In this document: positions 761 through 48,770 of the stretch, piece by piece
Layout: the number at the start of each line of letters is the position of its first letter
Numbering within the stretch: the first letter of the stretch is position 1
NCBI GenBank assembly: GCA_016290885.1
Contig: JAEEVN010000005.1
Coordinates: 1-58,321 of the forward strand
Origin: Caryophanales bacterium
GTDB lineage: Bacteria > Bacillota_I > Bacilli_A > RF39 > UBA660
DNA: 58,321 nt
Reading direction: 5' to 3'
Program-made: the position numbers and the translations under genes
Notes under the pieces: model-generated
Told to the model about the DNA's origin: nothing
The model's input: the letters and a program-made list of their open reading frames with translations, nothing else
Databases searched by the model: none

Positions 761-795
761 GGGGAATTTTTAAATTTAACGCGAATATAATATAT
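761..795 (+). promoter_or_regulatory. Promoter of the small-peptide mRNA, sigma-H-like motif
   Basis: GGGGAATT (761-768), 14 bases, then GAATATAATATAT (783-795). A housekeeping TATAAT can be read at 786-791, but the bases 17 upstream are GGAATT and not TTGACA. The same two blocks with the same spacing precede radC (34415-34449). The arrangement fits a sigma-H-type promoter (AGGAATT...GAAT). The start site would fall at about 797, the first base of the left inverted-repeat arm. The sigma factor assignment is inference. Confidence 0.55.
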
Positions 796-848
796 GGAGC
801 ATTTAAAGCTTAGTGTCTACCGACTTTTCTAGAAAGGAGGTGATATAG

Positions 849-935
849 ATGAGAAAACGTTTATACGTATTGAGTATCTTACTCTTTTCATCCATAATTT
901 TATATCTCCTATTACTAATAATAGAAGCAATGTAA
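849..935 (+). CDS. 28-residue hydrophobic peptide, putative type I toxin
   Basis: Encodes a basic start (MRKR), then a single hydrophobic span of about 20 residues (VLSILLFSSIILYLLLLII), ending IEAM. Length and make-up match membrane-acting type I toxins as a class, but I recognise no specific family. The SD is exceptional: bases 831-844 are a 14-base perfect complement of the 16S rRNA 3' tail, 4 bases before ATG. A CTCCT inside the gene (906-910) could mask it. The 3' untranslated region overlaps a convergent antisense RNA with its own promoter and terminator. Toxicity is inferred from architecture. A small membrane peptide with another role is possible. Confidence 0.7.
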   Translation: MRKRLYVLSILLFSSIILYLLLLIIEAM

Positions 936-967
936 AAAAAAGACACTTAAGCTTATAGCTTAAGTGT
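934..967 (-). terminator. Terminator of the antisense RNA
   Basis: Perfect 11-bp stem ACACTTAAGCT/AGCTTAAGTGT, loop of three, then U8 on the minus strand (A8 at 934-941). On the plus strand no T-run follows, so it acts only on the leftward transcript. The peptide mRNA should read through it. Confidence 0.75.
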
Positions 968-1013
968 TCAAACCAAAAAGGTAGACACTTAGTTATAAAC
1001 TAAATGCTCCTCT
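934..1013 (-). ncRNA. Putative antisense antitoxin RNA (~78 nt)
   Basis: A minus-strand promoter (1048-1020) predicts a start at about 1013. The RNA runs leftward through the right repeat arm and ends at a strong intrinsic terminator: an 11-bp perfect stem (943-953 with 957-967, 3-nt loop) followed by eight U. It is fully complementary to the 3' untranslated region of the peptide mRNA. It also begins with the same GGAGCATTTA...AGTGTCTACC sequence as the 5' end of that mRNA. This matches antitoxin RNAs that target the toxin message 3' end (txpA/RatA, bsrG/SR4 type). Ends are predicted from promoter and terminator only. Confidence 0.65.
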
Positions 1014-1019
1014 AAATAA

Positions 1020-1048
1020 ATTATAGCATAAAATAGTAATATATACAA
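1020..1048 (-). promoter_or_regulatory. Promoter of the antisense RNA
   Basis: On the minus strand, -35 TTGTAT (1048-1043), 17-base spacer, -10 TATAAT (1025-1020). This is a near-consensus housekeeping promoter and contrasts with the unusual promoter of the opposing peptide gene. Confidence 0.65.
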
Positions 1049-26374: not shown

Positions 26375-26384
26375 CTAATAAATG

Positions 26385-26581
26385 CGTTATAAGTGTGAGG
26401 AGTAAAATAATAATTATTTTAAGAGAGTCTATGGATGGTGAAAATAGATAATAATTTTATTTGAAGGTTGCATACTAAGCAGAAATATCCGTTAATACGC
26501 GTTAAGTATAAGAGAGCATAGATATCTATGAAGTAAGGTGGTACCACTCGAAAGAGCCCTTACATCATAGGTATTTTTTTG
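26385..26581 (+). promoter_or_regulatory. T-box riboswitch, Val specifier, upstream of HD gene and valS
   Basis: Stem I signature AGAGAGTC...GGATGGTGAAAA (about 26422-26444), specifier GTT (26467-26469) in the context GAAGGTTGC, T-box AAGGTGGTACCAC (26535-26547), and a terminator ending in T7 with arms TCTATGA and TCATAGG. It senses uncharged tRNA-Val. The first downstream gene is an HD hydrolase and valS is second. Confidence 0.9.
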
Positions 26582-48669: not shown

Positions 48670-48770
48670 ACGCCTCCTTTATAATTTTCTTAAGACTCGC
48701 CTAATAGGTAACTTACGTTTTATAACCATTTTCGTGCGGTTGTAAGCCAATTAAGGCATTACAAACGTTA
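48670..48770 (-). promoter_or_regulatory. L21 leader (autoregulatory RNA of rplU-prp-rpmA)
   Basis: The minus-strand leader forms a three-way junction. Outer stem ACGTTT/AAACGT (48768-48763 with 48720-48715) encloses one hairpin TGTAATGCC/GGCTTACA and another AACC/GGTT. Position and form fit the Firmicutes ribosomal L21 leader. Binding by L21 is inferred. Confidence 0.7.

Follow-up and report, generated by a model that had tools for sequence, protein, structure and literature searches.

What does the compact set of signals at positions 761-1048 of contig JAEEVN010000005.1 encode, and how might its expression be controlled? The stretch from position 1 to 58,321 of this contig, part of the Caryophanales bacterium assembly GCA_016290885.1, is referred to below as the window. 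A first-pass annotation had proposed a new type I toxin-antitoxin (TA) locus here, in which a messenger RNA (mRNA) that folds back on itself encodes a small hydrophobic peptide and is opposed by a convergent antisense RNA (asRNA). Comparison with related genomes makes it very likely that the element represents a new family of type I TA systems. Taken as a whole, the data are probably best explained by such a family equipped with a switch in which the asRNA mimics the 5' arm of the mRNA. The open reading frame (ORF), the Shine-Dalgarno (SD) sequence, the minus-strand promoter (TTGTAT-17-TATAAT), the terminator with U8 and the paired arms were all found where that annotation had placed them. In window numbering, the parts of the element are as follows:

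761..791, plus strand: toxin promoter, GGGGAATTTTT ... GCGAATATAAT, with the -10 TATAAT at 786-791, identified by conservation among aligned copies
near 796, plus strand: predicted mRNA start, at GGGAAUAUC, placed from the promoter position
796..821, plus strand: mRNA 5' arm GGAGCATTTAAAGCTTAGTGTCTACC, pairing with the 3' arm (folding, inverted-repeat match and covariation); its ACC doubles as the base of the SD-sequestering hairpin
818..841, plus strand: SD-sequestering local hairpin, UACC...CUUUU/AGAAAGGAGGU
830..844, plus strand: extended SD sequence TAGAAAGGAGGTGAT, of which GAAAGGAGGTG is conserved in a 15-copy alignment
849..935, plus strand: toxin-like ORF of 28 amino acids with one hydrophobic stretch, encoding MRKRLYVLSILLFSSIILYLLLLIIEAM (family comparison and ratio of nonsynonymous to synonymous changes, pN/pS)
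934..967, minus strand: intrinsic terminator of the asRNA, an 11-bp hairpin (967-943) followed by U8 (941-934)
934..1013, minus strand: putative antitoxin RNA (the asRNA), about 80 nt with two hairpins, beginning GGAGCATTTAG..CTAAGTGTCTACC, like the mRNA itself
980..1010, plus strand: mRNA 3' arm GGTAGACACTTAG...CTAAATGCTCC, the complement of both the 5' arm and the 5' end of the asRNA
near 1013, minus strand: predicted asRNA start, at GGGAACAUUC, placed from the promoter position
1020..1048, minus strand: asRNA promoter, with -35 TTGTAT (1048-1043), a 17-nt spacer and -10 TGC-TATAAT (1025-1020)

Neither promoter of the element was listed by a consensus promoter scan (the asRNA promoter falls below the rule of that scan), and comparative conservation was used instead; the TG-N-TATWAT element of the asRNA promoter is conserved in most copies within the genus. 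The toxin promoter is also compatible with a SigH-type GGGGAATT-N-GCGAAT promoter. The SD fits what we take to be the general 3' end of Bacilli 16S ribosomal RNA, which may not be that of the host itself. Minus-strand terminators of the kind seen here are expected 0.4 times per 3 kb from shuffling. In addition, the two arms were recovered independently, with 796-805 pairing to 1001-1010 at 10 of 10 positions and 802-821 to 980-999 at 17 of 20. The RNA spanning 796-1013 is predicted to fold at -67.5 kcal/mol, compared with -36.0 +/- 3.9 kcal/mol for dinucleotide shuffles (z = -8.2), and this fold holds both arms, the local SD hairpin and the terminator hairpin.

A multi-copy family in uncultured gut Bacilli

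The element, a unit of 250 bases, is a member of a large, unnamed family restricted, as far as is known, to a single family of uncultured gut Bacilli, presumably the RF39-type group. The genomes compared were draft assemblies. The window's own genome (1.11 Mb in 52 contigs) holds five full copies, the DNA search having returned three further copies and a partial match that was read as full, and related genomes carry many more, some of them in tandem. The resemblance exceeds chance: 15 copies align along the entire element and 60 non-redundant copies covary. A covariance model (R1), built from 21 aligned asRNA copies with a fixed two-hairpin structure, found the element in 159 of the 291 genomes and 101 of the 150 genera of the bacterial family (E <= 0.01), with at most 11 matches per genome. 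In a class-wide sample of 395 genomes, one single genome outside the family matched R1 at E <= 1e-4; the matching sequence is a complete element that shares about 85% identity with copies of the family, and transfer or contamination are possible sources. The peptide profile gave no match outside the family in a phylum-wide sample. Among named genomes, matches to the DNA pattern fell in uncultured Bacilli, Tenericutes and Firmicutes of the gut (rabbit, ruminants, chicken), including Candidatus Onthousia and Candidatus Ventrenecus, with a few records labelled otherwise, e.g. as Clostridia or Ruminococcus. No match to this pattern was found among viral contigs, and the element was also absent from phage and plasmid sets. 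Every part of the type I TA reading is backed by comparative data, but the locus does not stand alone: it belongs to a family that is present in many copies across the lineage.

Tandem arrays of two or three elements, about 290-370 bp apart, were observed at L153:364-1166, L102:6680-7527, G005:C9:211548-212143 and G002:C53:3137-3707, and such arrays sometimes combine intact with asRNA-only copies.

The peptide of intact family copies is 30 residues long and basic at its start, with a single hydrophobic stretch and an IKK end (consensus MKxRxFxxKxLxxIxIILxLL...IKK). Codon comparison indicates that the peptide is under purifying selection, pN/pS in moderately diverged pairs being 0.54 versus 0.87 and 1.02 for the same DNA in two other frames. 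Conservation in relatives, on which the first-pass reading had depended, was found for the ORF, and likewise for the asRNA promoter. The usual final codons are ATA AAA AAA TGA, and because the A-run is the complement of the asRNA U-tract, the same bases serve the antitoxin terminator and the terminal lysines of the toxin; it is unusual for one U-tract to supply both a terminator and the codons for Lys-Lys. Atypically, the copy in the window has 28 amino acids, ends in IIEAM and lacks the nearly invariant IKK. In the region L145:2861-2971, the 5' untranslated region (UTR) is deleted and the promoter -10 adjoins the ATG of an intact ORF, and this copy is possibly leaderless. The peptide may already be present, without a function, in human-microbiome small-protein catalogues.

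One-way loss of the toxin

All asRNA copies were read by hand, giving 135 distinct copies, of which four are cut by contig ends and 131 could be evaluated. SD and ORF are retained in 108 of these, and the remaining 23 are without a usable toxin, the gene being deleted in 10, broken in its coding sequence in 10 (start lost, nonsense, frameshift or deletion) and deprived of SD or leader in 3. When the search was led by the peptide, an asRNA was found to adjoin it in 30 of 30 loci and in 17 of 18 further evaluable ones (47/48), the asRNA-led and peptide-led sets differing in ascertainment, with the partner free to be missing in each. The sole exception (L245) has lost the asRNA terminator together with its own promoter and 5' arm, and an expressible toxin without an asRNA was found in 0 of the 48 peptide copies. 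The window's own site, beside sepF, repeats this pattern: a sister genome (G009) holds an asRNA-only remnant there, and the site carries no element in any of the nine remaining genomes of the genus for which sepF was located. Such one-way loss is as expected for an antitoxin, and for a peptide that would be harmful without the RNA, although it is not proof of toxicity. Repeated asRNA-only remnants, one of them orthologous, provide a culture-free comparative test of antitoxin function.

Covariation of the RNA structures

The two-hairpin structure of the asRNA shows changes on both sides in 11 of 22 pairs, with a covariation of 0.314 versus 0.232 after shuffling (21 copies). The 5'-3' fold-back proposed for the mRNA is likewise supported by covariation in 60 non-redundant elements. 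Its inner helix of 13 pairs is 95.6% paired and has double changes at 8 of them, and the fold-back and terminator helices together reach a covariation of 0.246, compared with 0.116 for shuffled and <= 0.06 for slid alignments. The outer helix, in the initial alignment of 15 members, has GC/AU exchanges in as many as half of them. Furthermore, at L134:6812-7045 a change from GTGTC to GTACT in the 5' arm is accompanied by matching changes in the terminator and in the 3' arm. In nearly all of the 60 members, UACCUC just upstream of the SD pairs with it in the local hairpin.

Across most of the wider family, TTTTTT comes after the 3' arm hairpin, which therefore probably ends the mRNA as well. The window's group has no T-run after the 3' arm; a separate hairpin with a T-run usually lies just downstream, which is weak in the window itself. 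The mRNA 3' end is predicted at GUUCCCUUUUUU.

One copy (L014; G031:C28, ~1409-1518) carries a palindromic insert of about 45 bases (TGATATGAACCCCATTTC...GAAATGAGGTTCATATCA) in the loop of the asRNA terminator; the insert is flanked by repeated ATGACTT and resembles a small inserted repeat with target duplication. Just upstream of the asRNA -10, in the promoter spacer, many copies, among them L069-L083 and most of the wider family, have a small inverted repeat (GCAAGTTTCCTTGC / TGAAGTTTCCTTCA) that covaries and could be an operator or an RNA hairpin.

A proposed switch in SD accessibility

Because the anti-SD UACC occupies the inner end of the fold-back helix, the SD hairpin and the fold-back compete. 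Opening the SD is predicted to cost 4.3 kcal/mol in the full-length mRNA, 7.3 kcal/mol without the 3' arm and 6.9 kcal/mol with the 3' region blocked as by the asRNA. Across the family, the fold-back is predicted to ease SD opening in 58 of 60 elements (mean change -3.0 kcal/mol, versus -0.2 kcal/mol with shuffled 3' arms), a count that does not amount to 58 independent tests because the elements are related. The asRNA covers the stop codon and the 3' UTR (934-1013) and, as the first-pass annotation had noticed, opens with the sequence that also begins the mRNA. Having nearly the same start as the mRNA, it would be able to replace the 5' arm on the 3' arm, and the predicted duplex between asRNA and 3' arm is complete.

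The following switch is proposed. In the nascent mRNA, the SD would be hidden in the UACC-based hairpin of the 5' UTR. Once the mRNA is finished, the 3' arm would pair with the 5' arm and withdraw UACC, leaving the SD easier to open. The asRNA, as a mimic of the 5' arm, would capture the 3' arm as a duplex, whereupon the 5' arm would return to the SD and translation would be switched off; by analogy with known systems, the duplex is likely to be open to RNase III cleavage. A shortage of asRNA would then allow the peptide to be made, with membrane damage as the outcome. If this is true, translation would require a complete mRNA that has escaped the antitoxin, and an RNA switch of such a type seems not to have been described previously. 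The polarity itself, in which the fold-back favours translation and the antitoxin restores the hiding of the SD, is advanced tentatively from the folding models. The joint proposal that the fold-back is the ON state and that the antitoxin, by mimicking the mRNA 5' arm, returns this arm to the SD is offered with slightly greater reserve.

Several points weigh against this picture. The SD energies are thermodynamic predictions on related, non-independent sequences, and in some folds the SD stays paired even in the fold-back form. If the 5' arm is instead paired with the terminator stem, 92.5% of cells fit; this alternative was set aside, showing little covariation beyond shuffling and less than the fold-back. 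The TA case is drawn from sequence and folding, with toxicity, transcription and RNA ends being predicted. In addition, the window's own peptide is without the IKK end, and this copy may hence be weak or weakened, and the conservation of the C-terminal IKK may in part serve the asRNA U-tract and not the protein.

Alternative explanations

The polarity could also be the classical one, with an inert fold-back, activation by 3' trimming and an asRNA that mainly triggers RNase III decay, as for RatA, SR5 and SR6. Such a type I TA system is a credible but not a probable alternative. The fold-back of about 25 pairs is very stable; the hok and AapA mRNAs are inert when folded back and need 3' trimming (PMC6733600), and RatA works through decay from a 3' overlap (PMC4147584). 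However, the aapA fold-back itself hides the SD, whereas here the SD of those 58 of 60 elements is predicted to close once the 3' arm is removed, so that 3' trimming should silence and not activate; no anti-SD was seen in the 3' arm.

The peptide might instead be a harmless small membrane protein (e.g. a stress or transporter regulator) riboregulated by a cis-antisense RNA. The toxicity is a prediction and the peptide is short and without a known family, yet a product that is addictive or toxic would account for the high copy number per genome, the tandem arrays and the one-way loss, and a harmless regulator would be expected to lose both parts, or the asRNA first. This explanation is accordingly considered unlikely. 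The copies, scattered and about 290-320 bp long, end in inverted repeats and differ in their flanks, and in this they also recall a mobile element similar to miniature inverted-repeat transposable elements, in which the ORF and the hairpins would be incidental. Coding selection, the conserved SD and asRNA promoter, helix covariation that includes GU-tolerant changes, and absence from viral, phage and plasmid sets render this highly improbable, and no target-site duplication was found at the one site compared with empty relatives. A type I TA family is, by comparison, the reading retained here.

Genomic surroundings and significance

Away from the element, the toxin promoter block (GGGGAATTT-N-CGAATA or a closely similar sequence) also precedes other genes in G000 and its sister G009; besides window 761-791, the sites are G000:C36:15938-15964, G000:C37:24772-24798, G000:C45:182205-182231 and G009:C3, C7, C2 and C23. 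The genes behind it encode a MacB-like ABC ATPase, a C39-peptidase-like protein and secreted proteins, and include topA; a reversed control pattern gave zero matches. The block is similar to SigH-type promoters, and among the proteins encoded in the genome is a sigma factor related to SigH (L276; TIGR02859 at E 1e-29, below the curated cut-off). Rfam places T-box leaders in the window at 1811-2007 (before an isoleucyl-tRNA-synthetase-like gene) and 26378-26564, and an L21 leader at 48683-48751 (minus strand). At L072:1076-1125 (plus strand), an ssNA-helicase RNA (RF03070, 49.4 bits, above gathering) lies near a copy of the TA element.

The element constitutes a candidate TA family, lineage-wide and multi-copy, in the reduced genomes (~1.1 Mb) of gut bacteria for which metagenomes are almost the only source, and no described type I system for this host group was found in the literature searched. 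In it, the 5'-3' fold-back of a Gram-positive-type toxin mRNA can be followed through natural covariation, and the element bears on whether a fold-back can turn a toxin on rather than off.

Comparison with known type I systems

No meaningful-score match to the element was obtained in Rfam (window and 16 loci), Pfam, NCBIfam, PHROGs or PADLOC, which agrees with the earlier impression that no known family matched. Peptide matches to KASH, SMIM43 and FliL models had E > 0.05 and were judged to be low-complexity noise. A full-text literature search for type I systems with a fold-back or in this bacterial group returned only the systems compared here.

The par locus of pAD1 (Fst/Ldr, RNA I/RNA II) has convergent promoters, an mRNA of about 230 nt, a membrane toxin of about 30 amino acids and an SD-hiding stem-loop in the 5' UTR (PMC7472228), and the element is alike in all of these. 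In Fst, however, the direct repeats DRa/DRb let the antitoxin cover the start region, whereas the repeats here are inverted and the asRNA does not reach the start. Fst also has a shared bidirectional terminator; that of the asRNA lies inside the mRNA, and 943-967 has no U-tract on the plus strand. The peptide showed no Fst/Ldr homology at a meaningful E-value in Pfam or NCBIfam. Direct repeats, shared terminator and unrelated peptide together exclude membership in the Fst family.

With hok/Sok and AapA/IsoA, the element shares a long-distance 5'-3' fold-back, here supported by covariation, and with aapA also SD-hiding hairpins, which in that system form during transcription (PMC6733600). The fold-back is the inert state of the hok and AapA mRNAs and silences them (PMC6733600), whereas that of the element is predicted to loosen SD hiding, and there is no sequence match. 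The likeness to hok and aapA drawn in the first-pass annotation is upheld for the fold-back as a structure, but the SD opening energies predict the opposite polarity for it. The AapA antitoxin, to our knowledge, does not copy the 5' end of the toxin mRNA.

In Bacillus subtilis, BsrG/SR4, TxpA/RatA, BsrE/SR5 and YonT/SR6 resemble the element in having a convergent asRNA that reaches into the 3' end of the mRNA for a small membrane toxin; the overlap at 934-1013, with the SD at 830-844, is limited to that end, as for BsrG/SR4-like antitoxins. SR4 binds far from the SD and lengthens the stem that hides the bsrG SD (PMC4147584; PMC5848175), the same SD-hiding logic as predicted here, and the extended SD of yonT (PMC5848175) is also shared. 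Neither the peptide nor the RNA matches this group in sequence (Rfam, Pfam, NCBIfam, PHROG), and the element is chromosomal and multi-copy, whereas the group is largely found on prophages or other integrated elements. The asRNA of the element begins by copying the mRNA 5' end and would compete with a covarying 5'-3' fold-back; we know of no such arrangement for SR4. By sequence a member of neither the BsrG/SR4 nor the hok/AapA group, the element would, as modelled, work most like BsrG/SR4 with a fold-back added.
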